This document shows, one piece after another, positions 6,108 to 37,150 of a stretch of DNA of 64,000 bases. Both the position numbers and the translations under genes were made by a program. The number at the start of each line of letters is the position of its first letter. Positions within the stretch are counted from its first letter, which is position 1. The DNA comes from Hyphococcus sp. (lineage in GTDB: Bacteria > Pseudomonadota > Alphaproteobacteria > Caulobacterales > Parvularculaceae): assembly GCA_021776245.1 (NCBI GenBank), contig JAJFGF010000004.1, positions 1 through 64,000 of the forward strand. Reading direction: 5' to 3'. Below the pieces are notes generated by a model. The model searched no databases, had not been told where the DNA came from, and saw only the letters and a list, made by a program, of their open reading frames with translations.

Positions 6108-9100
6108 ATGAGTTTGAAATCGATCCGCGTTGCCGGCGCACGCGAACACAATCTGAAAAATGTCACGCTGGAAGTGCCGCGCGACAAGCTGATCGTGATG
6201 ACCGGACTTTCCGGCTCCGGCAAATCGTCACTGGCATTTGACACAATATACGCCGAAGGCCAGCGCCGATATGTGGAATCGCTTTCGGCTTACGCGCGGC
6301 AATTCCTTGAATTGATGCAAAAACCCGATGTCGATCAGATTGAAGGTCTTTCACCGGCAATTTCCATCGAACAGAAGACAACATCGCGCAATCCGAGGTC
6401 GACCGTCGGCACGGTCACTGAGATTTACGACTATATGCGCCTGCTCTGGGCGCGTGTTGGCGTACCTTACTCACCGGCGACCGGATTGCCGATTACATCG
6501 CAAACGGTTTCCGAAATGGTCGACAGGTTGATGAAGGAACCGGATGGCGCGCGTTTTTACCTGCTGGCGCCGATCATTCGCGGCCGCAAAGGTGAATATC
6601 GTAAAGAATTTGCCGAATTGATGAAAAAGGGCTTTCAGCGCGTCAAAGTCGATGGCGCGTACCATGAAATCGCCGATGTTCCGGCGCTCAATAAGAAAAT
6701 CAAACACGACATCGAGGTGGTTGTTGACCGCATCATTGTAAAAAAAGGCGTTGAATCGCGCCTTGCAGAGTCGTTTGAGACTGCGCTGGAACTCGCTGAC
6801 GGCATTGCCATTGCGGAAAACGCGGATGGAAAAGGTTCCACCCCCGTTCACGGGGGCGGTGTCGCGAAGCGACGGAGGGGGCAGGACGCATCCCCCCTCA
6901 GTCATGCTGCCGCGCAGCCTGACAGCTCCCCCGCAAGCGGGGGAGCGGACAATAGGATCATTTTCTCCGCAAAATTTGCCTGTCCGGTCTCCGGATTCAC
7001 AATTGACGAGATCGAACCACGCTTGTTTTCATTCAATGCGCCGGCTGGCGCTTGCCCTGTATGTGACGGGCTCGGCACTGAAATGGTGTTTGACGAAGAA
7101 CTTGTCGTGCCGGACACGTCACTGCCCCTGAATAAAGGCGCAATTGCCCCCTGGTCGAAAGGAACGTCGCCCTATTACGCGCAAACCCTCGAAGCGCTGG
7201 CCAGGCATTACAAATTCAAGGTGACCACACCCTTCGAAGATCTCGATGAAGAGGCGCAATATGTTGTGCTCTATGGCACCGGAGAGGAAGACGTAAAATT
7301 CATCTATGCCGACGGGGCGCGAAAATTTGAAACCGTGAAACCCTTCGAAGGGGTCATACCCAATCTCGAGCGCCGCTGGCGCGAAACCGATTCAAGCTGG
7401 GTGCGCGAGGATTTGGCGCGGTTCCAGTCGATCACCAATTGCGAGGCCTGCGACGGACAGCGGCTAAAACCTGAAGCGCTCGCTGTCAAAGTCGGCGGCA
7501 AGCACATTTCCGAAGCGACAGCCTATTCGATCAAGGCGGCTGGCGCATGGTTTGAAGGCCTGGAAAAAAAGCTGAGCAAAAAGGAAATGGAAATCGCCGC
7601 CCGGATTTTGAAAGAGATCCGCGAGCGCCTGACTTTCCTCAATAATGTCGGTCTTGATTATCTGACCCTGGGCCGCGCCTCGGGCACGTTGTCCGGCGGC
7701 GAGAGCCAGCGCATTCGCCTGGCGTCGCAGATCGGTTCAGGACTGACCGGCGTACTTTATGTATTGGACGAGCCATCGATCGGATTGCACCAGCGTGACA
7801 ATGAACGGCTGCTCGAAACATTGAGACGCCTGCGCGATCTCGGCAATTCAGTAATCGTTGTGGAACATGACGAAGAAGCGATCCGCGCCGCCGACCATAT
7901 CGTCGATATCGGGCCGGGCGCCGGCATTCATGGCGGCGAGATTGTCGCGCAAGGAACGCTGCGCAATATCACATCCTCCAAGAGGTCGTTGACCGGCGAT
8001 TACCTGGCTGGACGCCGTGCGGTCCCCATCCCCGCCGAGCGCCGCAAATTCAACAAGCGCAAAATCATCAAGATCACCGGCGCGACGGAAAACAATCTGC
8101 AAAACCTCACCGCAGAGATACCCATCGGGCTTCTTACCTGCGTCACCGGCGTTTCCGGCGGCGGCAAGTCGACCCTGATCATCGAGACTTTATACAAGGC
8201 CGCGGCGCGCCGTCTTTATAACAGCAAGGGCGCGCCGGCCGCCCACAAGAAAATTGCCGGGTTGGAACATTTCGATAAGGTCATCGATATCGACCAATCG
8301 CCCATCGGCCGCACGCCGCGATCAAACCCTGCGACGTATACCGGCGCATTCACGCCGATCCGCGACTGGTTCGCCGGCCTGCCGGAGTCCAAAGCGCGCG
8401 GCTATAAGCCCGGGCGGTTTTCGTTCAACGTCAAGGGCGGGCGCTGCGAAGCCTGCCAGGGCGATGGCGTCATCAAGATCGAGATGCACTTTTTGCCGGA
8501 CGTCTATGTCACCTGCGATGTCTGCAAGGGCGCGCGCTATAATCGCGAAACGCTGGAAGTAAAATTTAAGGGCAAGTCCATCGCCGATGTCCTGGATATG
8601 ACCGTCGAAGAAGGCGCGATCTTCTTCAAAGCCGTACCGTCAATCCGCGACAAGCTCGAAACCCTCAATCGCGTCGGGCTCTCTTACATTCATATTGGTC
8701 AGCAGGCGACGACCCTATCCGGCGGCGAAGCTCAGCGGGTGAAACTGTCAAAAGAGCTTTCGAAGCGGGCAACCGGGCGGACACTCTATATACTGGACGA
8801 ACCAACCACCGGTCTTCATTTCGAAGACGTCCGGAAATTGATGGAGGTCATTCAGGAACTGACCGAGGGCGGCAACACAGTGATCATTATCGAGCACAAC
8901 CTCGATGTCATCAAACAGGCCGACTGGATTCTCGATCTTGGCCCCGAAGGCGGCGATGGCGGCGGTGAGATTGTCGCGGCGGGAACGCCGGAAGACGTCG
9001 CCAGAGTCGCGACGTCTTATACGGGGCAATTCCTCAAAGGCATGCTCAAGGGCGCTACCGGGAATGCCAACCCATCAAAGACGAAATCCAAAGCGCCCGC

Positions 9101-15094: not shown

Positions 15095-15847
15095 ATGGCA
15101 CAGAATGACTTGATCCCCGACCTTACCGGCAAAACCGCGCTTGTCACCGGCGCATCGCGCGGCATTGGCCGCGCCATGGCGCTTGCCCTTGCAAAAGCCG
15201 GCGCTCACGTGCTGGCGCTTGCGCGCACCAGCGGCGGCCTCGAAGAACTCGACGACGACATTAAAGCCGCTGGCGGCCAGACGTCGCTGATCCCGATGGA
15301 TTTAACCGAAGGCGACAGTATTGAGCGTTTGGCTGGCGCGCTATCGAAACGATTCGAAAAGCTCGATATCCTGTTTGCAAATGCAGCGATGCTTGGCGAG
15401 CTGGCCCCCCTGCCCGACATTGCGCCAAGAGCCTGGAACGCAACGCTTGACTTAAACGTCACGGCAAACTGGCGCTTGATCCGCGCCCTCGATCCGATGC
15501 TGCGCAAATCTGGCGACGCTCATGTTGTTTTCATGACGTCGCGCGTTGGCGGGGAATTGGCGCGACCTTTCTGGGGCGCTTATGCGGTTTCAAAGGCGGC
15601 GCTTGAAATGCTCGCAAAAACCTATGCCGAAGAAACCAAAAACGCCGGCATTTCGGTCGCGATTATCGATCCCGGCGCCATGCGCACGAATATGCGCGCC
15701 GAGGCCATGCCGGGCGAAGATCCGGAAAGTCTGCCGCCGCCTGAAGCCCTGACGCCAATGTTTTATGAGGCGATCACCGCAAAAACCGACGGCGTGTTGC
15801 GCCTGGCCTTTCGGGATTGGCGTGGTGCAAAAAAGATTGACGCTTGA
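15095..15847 (+). CDS. Short-chain dehydrogenase/reductase
   Basis: GKTALVTGASRGIGRAMALAL; YAVSKAALEML. Confidence 0.93.
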   Translation: MAQNDLIPDLTGKTALVTGASRGIGRAMALALAKAGAHVLALARTSGGLEELDDDIKAAGGQTSLIPMDLTEGDSIERLAGALSKRFEKLDILFANAAMLGELAPLPDIAPRAWNATLDLNVTANWRLIRALDPMLRKSGDAHVVFMTSRVGGELARPFWGAYAVSKAALEMLAKTYAEETKNAGISVAIIDPGAMRTNMRAEAMPGEDPESLPPPEALTPMFYEAITAKTDGVLRLAFRDWRGAKKIDA

Positions 15848-15990
15848 GAAGCAGTTCTTCGTCAAAAATAGGTTATTTGAAACTCAGTTCCTTGTAAGAA
15901 CATCAAAGGCATCTATTTGTACCTATGTCCAAACGCATGGGCGACCATCAAATCGCGCGTCACACTTTTTAGAAGCAGGTCGAAAGCGAC

Positions 15991-16794
15991 ATGATACCGA
16001 AGATCATTGGCCGCGGCGTCGATATTTATTTTAGAAAAACATTCTCCAGCCGCGCCCCGCCGCCAATATTGGAAACCTATGGCGAGACGACAGAACGGCA
16101 ACTCAAGACATTCGTTTATCCACATGAAGATGATGAACAGAATGCGCCCGTGCTGGCGCTGCTTTTTGGCGGCGGTTGGCACCATGGCAATCCCTGGCAA
16201 CTTGCAGCTATCGCCAGAGATCTTTCACGCAAAGGCATAACGGTTTATTTGCCGGAATATCGTGTTGCGGCGTGGGACAAAGTTTCGGTGGCGGATGCAT
16301 TGTCTGACGCAAGTCAATTCTTCCATTGGATGGCCGACCGCCACACTGCCAATCCAATTTTTTTCGGTGGGAGCAGTGCGGGCGGTTTTCTCGCAGCAAA
16401 CATCGCCTTGACTGCAACCCGAAAGCCTTCAGGCTTAGTGCTGCTTAACCCGGCGCTCAATTTGAAGCGTGAGCGCATTACCCGGTTTTGGCCGATGCTT
16501 GAGCAGCCGCACGGTTTTGGTATCGAAGAACTATTGGCATTGGATCCAATAGACAAATGCTCCCATAACGCGCCGCCCACGATCATTCTTCATGGCAGTC
16601 GCGATCCAATCATTCCATTAAGTTGGGTTGAGGCCTACGCGACGCAAGCGAGACGTAGCGGCGGCGACTGCCGCGTTATGTCTTTTAAAGGCTACAGCCA
16701 CGGTTTTGTGAACCAGGCGCTATTTCCAAAAGCACACGCCCGCGCCGTCCAAGCGATTATGGAATTCATTACCCATACCGTCGACGCGAAGTAA
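15991..16794 (+). CDS. Alpha/beta hydrolase
   Basis: LLFGGGWHHGN oxyanion motif, FFGGSSAGG nucleophile elbow. Confidence 0.85.
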   Translation: MIPKIIGRGVDIYFRKTFSSRAPPPILETYGETTERQLKTFVYPHEDDEQNAPVLALLFGGGWHHGNPWQLAAIARDLSRKGITVYLPEYRVAAWDKVSVADALSDASQFFHWMADRHTANPIFFGGSSAGGFLAANIALTATRKPSGLVLLNPALNLKRERITRFWPMLEQPHGFGIEELLALDPIDKCSHNAPPTIILHGSRDPIIPLSWVEAYATQARRSGGDCRVMSFKGYSHGFVNQALFPKAHARAVQAIMEFITHTVDAK

Positions 16795-16847
16795 CGGCTT
16801 TGCGCCAATAACCGCCAATCTCATGCGACCTGGTCAGGTAACCCGCT

Positions 16848-18218
16848 TTAAGTCTTATCTTTCACATATGGATTATCCGGCTTTTTCAAAATCAACCGGA
16901 TCGGCACCGCTTTGATGCCGAAGGCGTCGCGGATGCCGTTAACGAGATACCGTTTATAGGCTGTCGGCAAATCTTCCGCCCGCGTACATTGCGCGACAAA
17001 TGTCGGCGGCCGGGTTTTGGTCTGGGCGATGTAACGGATTTTAATGCGCTGCCCGGAAACCGCGGGCGGCGCGTGGCGGGCGATCGCATCATGCAGCCAG
17101 TCATTCAGGTCCGACGTCTTTACGCGCGCATTCCAGTCTACATAAACCTTTGTCACCGCCGGCATCAGTTTGTTTACGCCAACGCCGGTTAACGCCGACA
17201 ATGGGACGATGGGCACGTCCGGCGCCTGAGATAAAAGCCGCGCGGCTTTTTCGGTGATTTTCCGCAGCGCTGCATCGCGATCTTCAACTTCGTCCCATTT
17301 ATTGACGGCAATCACCAGCGCCCGGCCTTCGCGCAGCGCCAGATCGGCAATCTGCAGATCCTGTTTTTCGAACGGCGTTTCCGCTTCGGTTAACAGCACA
17401 ACGACTTCGGCAAACTGGATCGCGCGCAGGCTGTCGCCGACAGAAAGCTTTTCAAGCTTTGACTGAACCTTTGCTTTTTTGCGCATGCCTGCGGTGTCGA
17501 AAAGCTTAATCGGCCATTCGCGCTCAGTGCTGCGCCAGCGCCATTCGACGGAAATTGCATCGCGCGTGATGCCCGCCTCGGGCCCTGTGAGCAGGCGATC
17601 TTCGCCGATCAGGCGGTTTACCAGCGTCGATTTCCCGGCATTTGGCCGCCCGACGATGGCGACCCGCAAGGGTTTTAAAGGGCTGTCCCATTCGAGCGCT
17701 TCATCATCATCGGCCTCTTGAAATTCTGTGACAAACGGCTCGATCGCGCTATAAAGCTCGCCCATGCCTTCGCCATGTTCGCCGGATATTGCGACAGGTT
17801 CGCCAAGCCCCAGTTCATAAGCATCGTAAACACCAGCATCGCTCGCTTTACTCTCAGACTTGTTCGCGAGAAGCACCACAGGTTTACCGCTGGCGCGCAA
17901 AATCTGTGCAAATGTCCGGTCGAGCGGCGTAACCCCTGCCCGCGCATCGATGATCAAAAGACAGATCGCAGATTCCGCAACAGCCATATCCGTTTGCAGG
18001 CGCATCCGCCCTTCCAGCGCCGCTTCAGGCGCCTCTTCCAGTCCGGGCGTATCGATTGCAATGAAAGTGAGATCGCCGAGTTTCGCCGTTCCTTCACGCC
18101 GGTCGCGGGTGACGCCGGGCGTGTCATCCACAAGCGCAAGCTTTTTGCCGACAAGCCGATTGAACAGCGTCGACTTTCCGACATTAGGCCGGCCGACAAG
18201 GGCGACTTTGACAGACAT
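16848..18218 (-). CDS. der: Ribosome biogenesis GTPase Der/EngA
   Basis: Two GTPase domains: [18 protein letters not shown] and [30 protein letters not shown] motifs. Confidence 0.98.
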
Positions 18219-18245
18219 CGGCTTTGCAGGCGATGCACATGCGCA

Positions 18246-19661
18246 TCAGCGCATAGCAATCAGCTTGCCCTCTTCGGTAAGAATGTAAATTTTCTCGTTC
18301 GCGACGATCGGCGCGACAACCGACCCGTTTTCAATTTCTTTTGTTGTAACGACCTCACCGGTTTCCGGCGATACCTTGACGACTTCGCCATCGCTTGAAA
18401 CCAGCACCAGATGATCGCCTGCGAGAACCGGTCCGGACCAGGCAATTCGGCCTTTTTTCTTCTTTTCTTTTTTATAACGTTTTAGCTGCGATACCCAGAT
18501 GATGCCGCCATCTGTGCGCGATACGCAAGCCAGTTCGCCTTCGATGGAAACAATGAATATATAGTCGCCGGCCACCCAGGGCATTTGCAGGCTGGCGATG
18601 GAGGTTTCCCAAACCGATCGGCCCGTACGAATGTCAATCGCCGCAAACCGGCCGCCATGGCTGACGACATAAACAAGACCGCGATCGATCACCGGGCTTC
18701 CGGCGATGTCGTTAAGCGATGAAAGCGCCGTCAGCCGCGCCTGACGCACCAGTGTTTCATTCCAAACCGCCCGGCCATTATCCGTAATAAAGGCGACCAG
18801 CTCGCCCGAGGAAAACGGCGCGACAACAAGATCGCCCGAGGCTGCCGGACTGGCGGAAGAAAGAAAGCGCGCGGATTCTTCAAATGACTGAAACGTCCAC
18901 TCTTTCTTGCCGGTCTCTTGATTGAGCGCCACAAATTCATTGGTGTTCGTGGTAAAATAGACATTGCCGCGATAGGCCGTCGGCGGCGTGCGCACTGCCG
19001 ATTCTGTTTTCGTCCGCCACAATTCTTCGCCCGACATAGCATCAAGGGCGGCGACAAATCCAAAACCGGAAGTTACGAAAACGCGCCCCTCGTCAAACGC
19101 GACGCCGCCGCCAAATCCAATTTCCTTTGGTTTTGGGCCGCGAAAAATTTCACGCACACGGAACCGTTGCTCGATGTCCGGCGCCAATTCGGTGCGCCAG
19201 ACCAGCTCGCCGCTGGCGCTGTTAAAAGCTGAAACCTGCGCAGCTGCATCAAGAACAAAAATGCGATCGCCAACAACAATTGGCGGTGACGTCAGCCGCG
19301 CCCGCCGCGATGACGCTTTGCCGATATCGACTTTCCAATCGATCTCCAATTCAGCCGTCGCGCCCAGATGGTGCAACGTGTGATCGGCTTCGCCGCCCGG
19401 CTGCGGCCAGGACGGATTGATATAGGAGGGCGGAACAGTGACGGCGGCGCCGACATAGCGCGGGTCCGGTGAAAGCTGCTCTTCCAGCGCGAGGATCGAA
19501 ATGCGGTCTTCCTCTTCCGGCGCATTTTCTTCGCCCTTGTCGTCATCGCCGGAAAACAGGCCGGTAATCGGATTGGATGAGCAGGCCGCCGCTGCTAACG
19601 CAAAAAGCGACATCACGGCGAATAATCTAAATTGACCAGCCAGGGCGGGAATAGTTTTCAT
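18246..19661 (-). CDS. bamB: BamB-like outer membrane assembly lipoprotein (PQQ/beta-propeller repeats)
   Basis: Lipobox (LAAAACSS), repeated propeller blades with GxxxW patterns; adjacent to der. Confidence 0.88.
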   Translation of the reverse strand: MKTIPALAGQFRLFAVMSLFALAAAACSSNPITGLFSGDDDKGEENAPEEEDRISILALEEQLSPDPRYVGAAVTVPPSYINPSWPQPGGEADHTLHHLGATAELEIDWKVDIGKASSRRARLTSPPIVVGDRIFVLDAAAQVSAFNSASGELVWRTELAPDIEQRFRVREIFRGPKPKEIGFGGGVAFDEGRVFVTSGFGFVAALDAMSGEELWRTKTESAVRTPPTAYRGNVYFTTNTNEFVALNQETGKKEWTFQSFEESARFLSSASPAASGDLVVAPFSSGELVAFITDNGRAVWNETLVRQARLTALSSLNDIAGSPVIDRGLVYVVSHGGRFAAIDIRTGRSVWETSIASLQMPWVAGDYIFIVSIEGELACVSRTDGGIIWVSQLKRYKKEKKKKGRIAWSGPVLAGDHLVLVSSDGEVVKVSPETGEVVTTKEIENGSVVAPIVANEKIYILTEEGKLIAMR

Positions 19662-34160: not shown

Positions 34161-34562
34161 ATGAACCTTAATCAAATCACCATTCACGTCAGCAATCTTG
34201 AACGTTCCAGCGCCTTTTATCAAAAGATCGGTCTGGTTTTGATCGTCAACAGTCCCGGCAATGGCTACGCCCGGTTCGAATGCCCGGATGGCGGGACAAC
34301 TTTTTCGCTTCACCAAGCGGAAAACATATCACCCGGCGGCGCCTCGTTTTATTTTGAAGTCGACGATGTTGATGGTGTGGTCAAAGCGCTGAAAGATAAT
34401 GGCGTCGCTTTTGAAACCGACCCTACTGATCAGACATGGCTGTGGCGCGAAGCCTGGTGCCGCGATCCTGACGGCTACCGTATCGGGATTTATCATGCAG
34501 GTGAAAACAGACGGTTTCCACCGTGGCGCGTCAAAGACCATGGGGCAGGTTCGGCTGAATGA
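34161..34562 (+). CDS. VOC/glyoxalase family protein
   Basis: ITIHVSNLERSSAFYQKIGLVLI ... WCRDPDGYRIGIYHAGE. Confidence 0.92.
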   Translation: MNLNQITIHVSNLERSSAFYQKIGLVLIVNSPGNGYARFECPDGGTTFSLHQAENISPGGASFYFEVDDVDGVVKALKDNGVAFETDPTDQTWLWREAWCRDPDGYRIGIYHAGENRRFPPWRVKDHGAGSAE

Positions 34563-35011
34563 AATTGTTGGTTCCGCCTGTCGTTCAAGTCATAGTGTCT
34601 GCAATCGCGATGTGGGTGCTCAAAAAACAATTTCCGCTTCTCGATTTCGCACTTACTCATCGACGTTTGATTGCGAGCGCACTCATTGCAAGCGGACTAA
34701 TCATAACCGTCATCGCTGTCGCCGACTTTGGCAAGGCGAAGACAACAGTTAATCCAACAACGCCGTCACAAGCCAATACGCTGATCATCGGCGGGCTATA
34801 TCGGTTCAGCCGCAATCCCATGTATCTTGGCTTCCTGATGATCTTAAGTGGTTGGGCTGTCGGCTTGGGAAATCTTGCAGTGATTGGAATCCTGATGGTT
34901 TTCGTCTGGTACATGACAGTGTTCCAGATCAAACCCGAAGAACAGGCGCTAGGGGAAAAATTCGGCGCTGACTATGAAGCGTACCGCGAAAGCGTGCGCC
35001 GCTGGATTTAA
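34559..35011 (+). CDS. Isoprenylcysteine carboxyl methyltransferase-like integral membrane protein
   Basis: GLYRFSRNPMYLGFLMILSGWA ... EEQALGEKFGADYEAYRESVRRWI. Confidence 0.92.
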   Translation: MKLLVPPVVQVIVSAIAMWVLKKQFPLLDFALTHRRLIASALIASGLIITVIAVADFGKAKTTVNPTTPSQANTLIIGGLYRFSRNPMYLGFLMILSGWAVGLGNLAVIGILMVFVWYMTVFQIKPEEQALGEKFGADYEAYRESVRRWI

Positions 35012-35020
35012 GATCGGTTG

Positions 35021-35083
35021 CTAGCGCACCACATCAATCATTTGCGCCATCACGGCGAGATATTCGCGAGCAATGTGATGGCG
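35021..35083 (-). pseudogene. Diverged duplicate of the 3' end of the M14 carboxypeptidase gene
   Basis: Minus-strand RHHIAREYLAVMAQMIDVVR* versus CRKFGRDNLAVMAQMIDVVR* of the intact gene; first 21 nt from the stop codon are identical. Confidence 0.88.
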
Positions 35084-35995
35084 TCAAAACCAAATATTGT
35101 AGTTCAATCCCCGGCCATCATCCAGAGTAATTGCGTCTCTGCCTTCTAACGAAAAAAGCCGTGCATCAACTTCTGCCAAGGCACAATTATTTTCATATAG
35201 CCCGCAGGGCCAGACGGGTTCAATTCTGCGGCCCAATGATGAAATTATCCAAGAAATATAGGTTGGTCCCGACCGATCAGATGTTTCCCATCCGCGTGCG
35301 ACCACCCCGATTAGGGAACCATTTTGGTCTAAAGCCGCCCCACCGCTCATACCTCCTAGAGAACCACAATCAATTTCAATCGCAGGAAAAGGAATGAGAA
35401 GCTTATCTCGCCCCTCGGGAAACACACTGACTACTACACCCTTGGAAATGTACAGATCCGCACCAAAAGTAATATTATCCTTACACCAATCAATTCCATC
35501 GCCTCGAAAGCCGACTATCGTAACATTGTCACCGTTCTTTGGAGCCCGCGTTGTGGCACCAATTCGATAGTAAGTATTTTTGGGCGGCAGACCCGACGCA
35601 GCTGCTATCGATAAAATGGCTATGTCGTCGTTCAGGTCATGAGATATCTTCGAGACCCGCCAAATTTGTGCACAATCACCACAAATTCCAAATAAGTATG
35701 GCTGTATTTTTTCTTGGCTTAAATCGTCAAATTGATCACCAAAATTGTGAGTAGCGGTTAGAGCTATGCCAGGAGCTACTATCGCCGCTGATCCTATCAG
35801 TTCTGTCGAATTTTCCGATTTTAGCACTAGCCCACATATACTGCCCTTAAAATACTCCCAATTGACGACACCTCGTGGTTGCCGCAACGCGTCAGATTTC
35901 TGGAGACCGACATTATTGAAGACTATCTTATGACCAACGGACAAGTTCTTAGTTGGGTCATCGGTAATTTGACACGATTTAATATCACCAGCCAA
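35084..35995 (-). CDS. Trypsin-like (S1-type) serine protease, no signal peptide
   Basis: His (ALTATHNFGD), Asp (LNDDIAIL) and Ser (GSLGGMSGGAAL) motifs. TTG start assumed; visibly more AT-rich than neighbours. Confidence 0.75.
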   Translation of the reverse strand: MAGDIKSCQITDDPTKNLSVGHKIVFNNVGLQKSDALRQPRGVVNWEYFKGSICGLVLKSENSTELIGSAAIVAPGIALTATHNFGDQFDDLSQEKIQPYLFGICGDCAQIWRVSKISHDLNDDIAILSIAAASGLPPKNTYYRIGATTRAPKNGDNVTIVGFRGDGIDWCKDNITFGADLYISKGVVVSVFPEGRDKLLIPFPAIEIDCGSLGGMSGGAALDQNGSLIGVVARGWETSDRSGPTYISWIISSLGRRIEPVWPCGLYENNCALAEVDARLFSLEGRDAITLDDGRGLNYNIWF

Positions 35996-36019
35996 ATCAC
36001 ATGCCTTTTCGACTAAGTT

Positions 36020-37150
36020 CTAGCGCACCACATCAATCATCTGCGCCATTACCGCGAGATTATCGCGCCCGAATTTGCGGCAGCGTTCCGGCGACCAGCC
36101 ATAGACCGGGTCGGGGTTGATATTTGCGTCCTTGAACGGCATTTCCAGCGTCATCGAAAGACAATTCCAGGTTTCAGCTACATAGCTGTTTGCAATATCG
36201 AGATTGGCGGCGCCGGGCGCCGCGGCGGGATATCCGTCCTTCGTCTGGAAATCCTTGCTCGCCTCCAGAAGCAGCGCGGCATACCGATCACACAACATTT
36301 CGTGGCGATCGTTCCAGGACGGAATGCCTTTGGCGCTGTCGAGGAAATTATTGGGGATCGCCTCGTCGCCATGGACATCCAAAAAGAAGTCAACGCCGGT
36401 TTCCTGCATTTTCCGGCGCACGAGGAAAACCTCCGGACTGAGCTCCATGCTCGTATTGCGCCATGCGCGGTTTAAATCCGTACCCGCCGCATTGGTGCGC
36501 AAATGACCGCGTTTTACGCCGTCCAAATTCATACAGGGAATAATATGCACAACCGCTTTTTCACGCAGAATTTGCGCCGCCGGATCATCTTCGTCTGTTA
36601 TGCGTGCGAGAAATCCTTCCATCCACCATGACGCCATGGTCTCGCCGGGATGCTGGCGGGCGTTTACCCAATAATGGCGTTTGTTTTCGCCCGGCTCACC
36701 AGCGCGGAAATAATCAATATCCTGACCATCAAGGGTCTGGCCCAAATATTCATGGGCGATCAGCGAAGAACGCCGCGTCTTCTCAACAAGCGCTTTGCAC
36801 CGCGCTGCAGGATAGGCGGCAAAATATGCATAATAGACGCGGTCGTGATCAGGCGTGTGCTTGATCGTCAGCGATCTTCCATCATAGCCGGTTTCGACAC
36901 GAAACCAGCGCTCATGATCATAGGACGCGACCGCACGATAGTCGTTCCAACCGCCTGGATAGGACGCTCCGTTTGCATTGACGATATTCATCACCAGGGG
37001 GCGCGTCATAGCCCCCTCCACGCAATAGAAAAACCACTGGTAAAATTTTGCTTTTCCGTCCTGCTCAATCTCCAGACGAATATCCGAAAGGTTAGAAAGG
37101 TCAAGGCAATTGATATTGCCATGGTCGAAGTCGCTGGAAATTTTGATCAT
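36020..37150 (-). CDS. M14 family carboxypeptidase (cytosolic type with N-terminal M14_N-like domain)
   Basis: NARQHPGETMASWWMEGFL (HxxE), FFLDVHGDEAIPNNFL. Confidence 0.93.
   Translation of the reverse strand: MIKISSDFDHGNINCLDLSNLSDIRLEIEQDGKAKFYQWFFYCVEGAMTRPLVMNIVNANGASYPGGWNDYRAVASYDHERWFRVETGYDGRSLTIKHTPDHDRVYYAYFAAYPAARCKALVEKTRRSSLIAHEYLGQTLDGQDIDYFRAGEPGENKRHYWVNARQHPGETMASWWMEGFLARITDEDDPAAQILREKAVVHIIPCMNLDGVKRGHLRTNAAGTDLNRAWRNTSMELSPEVFLVRRKMQETGVDFFLDVHGDEAIPNNFLDSAKGIPSWNDRHEMLCDRYAALLLEASKDFQTKDGYPAAAPGAANLDIANSYVAETWNCLSMTLEMPFKDANINPDPVYGWSPERCRKFGRDNLAVMAQMIDVVR

Follow-up and report, generated by a model that had tools for sequence, protein, structure and literature searches.

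A protease gene between two copies of a carboxypeptidase gene 3' end in a Hyphococcus genome, and similar scars at other resident genes

Integration by tyrosine recombinases commonly leaves the target gene with a restored 3' end, and in the genomic islands that depend on them direct repeats with the restored 3' end flank the foreign DNA. In the minimal mobile element of Neisseria, genes are exchanged cleanly by homologous recombination in both flanks, a process that does not by itself produce a duplicated 3' end. DNA can also integrate through one homologous and one illegitimate join, as has been established in other bacteria (PMC3240628); the same route was suggested for displaced 3' gene modules (PMC5361080). 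In such displacement arrays one join is homologous and lies in a conserved gene, the other is illegitimate, and serial events build the arrays (PMC5361080). Finally, insertion with long target duplication has been described for restriction-modification genes of Helicobacter pylori 26695 and J99 (Nobusato, Uchiyama, Ohashi and Kobayashi 2000, as cited in PMC1643837 and PMC3031569).

The locus compared here with these systems lies on contig C24 of the Hyphococcus genome (G000), that of a Marinicaulis-like member of the Parvularculaceae, within the window, i.e., the whole 64-kb stretch of DNA that was analysed. Its features are the following:

34559-35011, plus strand: ICMT/PEMT-like methyltransferase gene (150 aa; Pfam), the native downstream neighbour, convergent to the M14 gene (synteny in G021, G024, and G017)
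35021-35068 (to about 35078 with one gap), minus strand: remnant, a diverged second M14 3' end including the TAG stop, beside the ICMT 3' end (repeat alignment)
35084-35995, minus strand: cargo, a trypsin-like (Trypsin_2) protease gene of 303 aa with a TTG start, apparently complete, a singleton in the genus
35996-36019, minus strand: leader of 24 nt separating the M14 stop codon from the start of the protease gene; a Shine-Dalgarno-like run, AAAAGG, lies 8 nt upstream of the TTG
36020-36067, minus strand: functional copy of the 48-nt 3'-end repeat, directly adjoining the cargo (repeat and whole-genome searches)
36020-37150, minus strand: intact M14 carboxypeptidase gene (376 aa; Pfam Pepdidase_M14_N and Peptidase_M14) with its functional 3' end

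A sequence-only reading of the window had described the end of the M14 gene as recurring on the far side of the protease gene, and this description was borne out in most particulars. The terminal 48 nt of M14 (36020-36067) were matched at 35021-35068 with 43 of 48 positions identical (90%) and no gap, the start-to-start distance was exactly 999 nt, and the two copies encode the peptides claimed for them, REYLAVMAQMIDVVR and RDNLAVMAQMIDVVR, each followed by the stop codon. The repeat reaches ~58 nt if one gap is allowed. Within the 64 kb it was the sole dispersed, well-conserved, non-low-complexity repeat of such length, and in a whole-genome search the M14 3' end found two copies only (65 bits, E 6e-12), the next match in G000 scoring 29 bits. 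That the repeat might be an ordinary internal repeat of the M14 family, a possibility that would have undone the earlier reading, was ruled out by the M14 loci of relatives and the repeat search of the window. A weak repeat signal at one relative locus (L003) was mid-gene and probably due to chance. No inverted repeat was observed at the M14/protease junctions, and no convincing promoter or terminator was found in the M14-protease region.

The open reading frame between the copies is indeed a protease gene and AT-rich, its G+C content being 45.6% as compared with 53.5% in the M14 gene and 55.4% in the contig. Its stop codon (35084-35086), however, does not directly abut the remnant as had been stated; the gap is ~5 to 15 nt, depending on how the edge is aligned. 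The product matched the Trypsin_2 profile (PF13365; E 3e-11, 44.5 bits against a cut-off of 27.6), and its putative catalytic triad (His83, Asp124, and Ser217) was invariant in an alignment of three sequences. The best homolog, with 33% identity, belongs to another family of the same order. Because the TTG start aligned with the ATG start of this homolog and the putative triad was invariant, the reading frame looks complete. Since the gene starts 24 nt past the M14 stop on the same strand, co-transcription with the M14 gene is likely. The cargo contains no recombinase gene; the integrases of G000 sit on other contigs.

Several origins of the protease gene could be set aside. It had no match in phage or plasmid collections, so that neither a phage nor a plasmid source was indicated. 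A role in defence was suggested only by weak fold-level matches to the protease domains of RT-Protease_XI and LmuA, and was not retained. The gene also had no match in the other genomes of the genus, including their M14 loci, which argues against tandem duplication of a native M14-protease pair followed by loss. An integron gene cassette was rejected as well, since inspection of the junctions by eye showed no attC-like site (GTTRRRY core with inverted arms).

An M14 ortholog was present in 27 of the 28 genomes of the genus, and the space between it and the ICMT-like gene varied. In G017 (protein identity only 65%) the two genes abut with a single M14 tail, while in G024 they are separated by 137 nt. 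G021 is the closest relative (M14 84% identical to that of G000); here the M14 and ICMT genes are ~890 nt apart, and the slot contains a DUF4328 gene of opposite orientation. After it, next to the ICMT gene, a second M14 3' end persists in decayed form (72%). The DUF4328 gene of G021 and the protease gene of G000 are each singletons within the genus. The absence of the protease gene elsewhere and the abutting genes in G017 support the proposed insertion, and the arrangement was not shared over deep divergence, an outcome that would have spoken against it. In G000 as in G021, ~16 nt lie between the remnant and the ICMT stop, so that the remnant occupies the ancestral position of the M14 3' end, a possibility that the sequence-only reading had raised for the copy at 35021. 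When both copies of G000 were compared with the M14 tail of G021 to see which matches this relative better, 7 and 8 differences were counted, which hardly separates them.

A fixed slot between two conserved genes with different single genes in each genome resembles the minimal mobile element of Neisseria, but the M14 slot has a duplicated 3' end. A related explanation is that the M14 3' end was duplicated once, before the split of G000 and G021, and that the cargo was later exchanged by homologous recombination in the flanks. The slot and remnant at the same place in both sisters, with similar spacing to the ICMT gene, would agree with this, as would the common single-gene turnover between the two genomes. 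Among the few informative sites in the four-way comparison of M14 ends, however, two grouped each remnant with its own tail, one was conflicting, and none grouped the two remnants. At other genes, moreover, a similar scar is present in one of the two species where the site is empty in its sister. A single ancestral duplication thus seems highly improbable, and the sites compared lean toward two separate events for the M14 scars of G000 and G021.

Single-gene presence or absence between G000 and G021 was frequent along positions 12417-63302 of the window, mostly without flanking repeats, and unrelated genes were often swapped in the same slot (e.g., at 15820-16854). Across 60 kb of shared gene order, 12 gaps were counted, most of them without repeats.

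A foreign gene thus lies between direct target copies far longer than the duplications made by transposons, and the M14 footprint belongs to the known kind termed insertion with long target duplication. As far as the citing papers describe the H. pylori cases, they share with the present ones accessory genes without a transposase, a long direct target duplication, and absence from a related genome. Compared with the same descriptions, the scars reported here differ in being mostly gene 3' ends that usually end at the stop codon, in diverging mainly at third codon positions, and in that restriction-modification genes are not among the cargos named.

Similar scars were present elsewhere in G000 and G021. 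The parts sampled were ~0.71 Mb of G000 (about a sixth) and 2.05 Mb of G021 (about half). Direct comparison between the genomes yielded 28 indels, and four insertions showed flanking duplications of ~100-220 bp, whereas the corresponding site in the sister is single-copy and empty:

7.3-kb block at an AraC-type gene
0.6-kb block at yacG
1.5-kb block at an MFS-like gene
1.9-kb AbiEi/AbiEii toxin-antitoxin block in a non-coding stretch (G000 C7:6198-8527), flanked by a duplicated non-coding stretch of ~219 nt (84%), with the empty site at ~157.5 kb of G021 contig C11

Independently of this comparison, the sampled sequence, about 2.76 Mb in all, was scanned for repeats, with heuristic gene calls. 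Isolated two-copy repeats flanking genes were direct in 26 cases and inverted in 3 (p 8e-6); among the direct repeats, 14 lay at gene 3' ends and 1 at a 5' end (p 5e-4). Without five doubtful cases (MBL, the partly inverted kynureninase case, C2 39-kb, C11 77-kb, and C11 95.3-kb) the latter ratio was 9:1 (p 0.011). The script missed both M14 scars, as the atypical protease was not called as a gene and the G021 repeat fell under its threshold, and it put yacG aside as multi-copy. The 13-kb loci scanned in unrelated genomes gave zero isolated cases, a control too small to be useful. Repeat lengths were 48-58 nt at M14 and 40-220 nt at the other scars. In G021 (C1:117250-118976) the 3' end of a MAPEG gene likewise carries an inserted single Trypsin_2 protease gene together with a diverged copy of the tail; this case mirrors the M14 locus and is independent of it.

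Two further loci of G000 were observed in addition. On contig C2 (85545-95077) a ten-gene block, which by eye contains two disulfide-reductase-like genes, a MerR-like regulator, and others, lies between 200-nt repeats (95%) made up of a gene 3' end and the 56 nt beyond its stop codon; the contig has no Phage_integrase gene. On contig C9 (20700-23600) the 3' end of a kynureninase-like gene is copied past a LuxR-type gene, both directly (72%) and inverted (38 nt, 100%), in what is a more complex rearrangement.

The most elaborate scar was found at yacG (Pfam YacG; G000 C2:7444-18150), the 3' end of which occurs in four copies: in the gene, at 8322 (97%), at ~11.78 kb (84%), and at 18.04 kb (84%). 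The copies are separated by different cargo, i.e., a 155-aa protein, a CHAT-domain protein, and a DUF885 protein with a DegP-like protease, while in every other genome of the genus that gave a match the yacG tail was single. Insertions may thus have landed at this gene end more than once, and the array can be likened to the arrays built by serial events (PMC5361080). After the array, at 18200-18724, an ORF resembling a REP-associated (RAYT-type) transposase was seen by eye only.

Serial copies at yacG, and different cargo at the same gene end in two species with similar junctions, could also be explained by site-specific integration, in which the M14 3' end would serve as the attachment site of a recombinase acting in trans, and the mobile unit would be a mini-element made up of the cargo and a replacement 3' end. 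Restoration of gene 3' ends is usual for tyrosine recombinases, and foreign DNA between direct repeats that include a restored 3' end is likewise common to the M14 locus and the islands. The scars nevertheless differ from such islands in the one-gene cargo, the lack of a recombinase, and the many unrelated target genes. About a dozen unrelated 3' ends were used, the cargos examined with Pfam contained no integrase, and a search of contigs C24 (that of the window), C2, C3, C7, and C9 for Phage_integrase genes was negative. No other copy of the M14 tail, and hence no second attachment site, was found in the whole-genome search. Site-specific integration is accordingly considered improbable.

The differences between functional tails and remnants were also counted by codon position. 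Summed over 17 pairs (with the yacG D2 row limited to its 102-nt homologous part and C2_11x, a likely paralog pair, left out), codon positions 1/2/3 showed 51/35/113 differences. The third-position share (113 of 199, 57%) is greater than the neutral 33% (p 1e-11). It is also greater than the 44-50% that we estimate for duplication in place, with decay of the extra copy and continued constraint on the functional one (p 2e-4 to 0.03). Between the M14 orthologs of G000 and G021 the share, as estimated from codon-position identities, is ~69%, and the value in the scars is therefore intermediate. Many copies thus appear, from their codon positions, to have diverged as coding alleles before they were brought together, with later decay added. 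At the M14 scar alone (five differences, 1/0/4) the bias is weak by itself (p 0.045), and several scars showed no codon bias (G021 M14, 7/2/7; the C2 86-kb case, 2/2/2; ExbD, 0/1/0). In addition, homology stopped within 10 nt of the stop codon in ~10 of 15 cases, as would be the case if donor and recipient shared the gene and not the sequence after it.

These two patterns bear directly on in-place duplication of a long target. Under this explanation, aberrant repair or replication would capture foreign DNA, by template switching to the foreign DNA and then back upstream, so that 40-200 nt of target are copied twice and the non-coding copy decays. The footprint is that of the H. pylori insertions, as cited in PMC1643837 and PMC3031569. 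Copy identities range from ~70% to 98%, as expected for events of differing age, and the MFS and M14 remnants of G021 have indels or have lost the stop codon. The yacG D1 and D2 copies, 97% identical, are compatible with copies identical at birth, and these two near-identical copies are equally far from the empty site of the sister. However, the third-position bias exceeds the estimate for one decaying copy, and the repeat ends cluster at stop codons. Moreover, Ku was absent from G000 and G021, so classical end-joining capture would not be available, and capture by NHEJ was rejected. In-place duplication is therefore rated less likely than recombination with a diverged homolog, although it is the most plausible of the rival explanations. 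comEC was present in both genomes and counts in favour of such recombination, though weakly, being a common gene.

Of the two mechanisms proposed by the sequence-only reading, recombination with a diverged allele carrying the extra gene fits better, because of the third-position bias and the homology ending at the stop codon; it is favoured rather than proven, and an insertion that regenerated the 3' end of its host gene fits less well. We give recombination with a diverged homolog, by one homologous and one illegitimate join, a probability of roughly one in two. The donor and both joins are inferences, the homologous join being suggested by the coding-type divergence between tail and remnant. 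The donor would have been a related genome in which the M14 gene already preceded the protease gene. One join would have formed by homologous recombination inside the M14 gene, and the other illegitimately, between DNA just past the protease stop and a point ~60 nt before the stop of the recipient M14 gene. The M14 gene would thereby have gained the 3' end of the donor together with the extra gene, and the last ~58 nt of the recipient's own M14 gene would have stayed beside the ICMT gene. The search found no donor genome with M14 directly before this protease gene. A random illegitimate join would predict neither the short repeats nor the reuse of particular ends (M14 in both species, yacG in four copies). 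That such recombination has been measured as rare (PMC5361080) also counts against recombination with a diverged homolog.

The recombination favoured here corresponds to homology-facilitated illegitimate recombination (PMC3240628; for arrays, PMC5361080). As in the T6SS immunity arrays and Rhs orphan tips, a module is added and the older 3' part is left downstream. The anchors here, however, are housekeeping or ordinary genes that regain their entire 3' end, and what stays behind is a tail of 50-200 nt and not a toxin tip or an immunity gene. Relative to the report of 2000, as it is represented in the papers citing it, the placement at 3' ends, the codon-biased divergence, and the reuse of the same ends may be new.

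Few records exist, outside laboratory work, of how chromosomes acquire single foreign genes with neither transposase nor integrase. Scars of this kind record single events, with the cargo, the landing gene, and a rough age, and their codon-position bias can tell an imported foreign allele from a target copied in place. As the same slot holds different cargo in sister genomes and yacG carries a four-copy array, the hypothesis of repeated landing sites is directly testable. As a tentative and, on balance, doubtful generalization, Marinicaulis-like bacteria might recurrently gain accessory genes at resident 3' ends, where the incoming diverged end would restore the gene, add 1-10 genes, and leave the old end as a dated scar, with favoured ends (yacG and M14) being reused to form arrays. 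If true, recurrent landing at 3' ends would parallel integrative elements without needing a recombinase, and could be read genome-wide from its scars.
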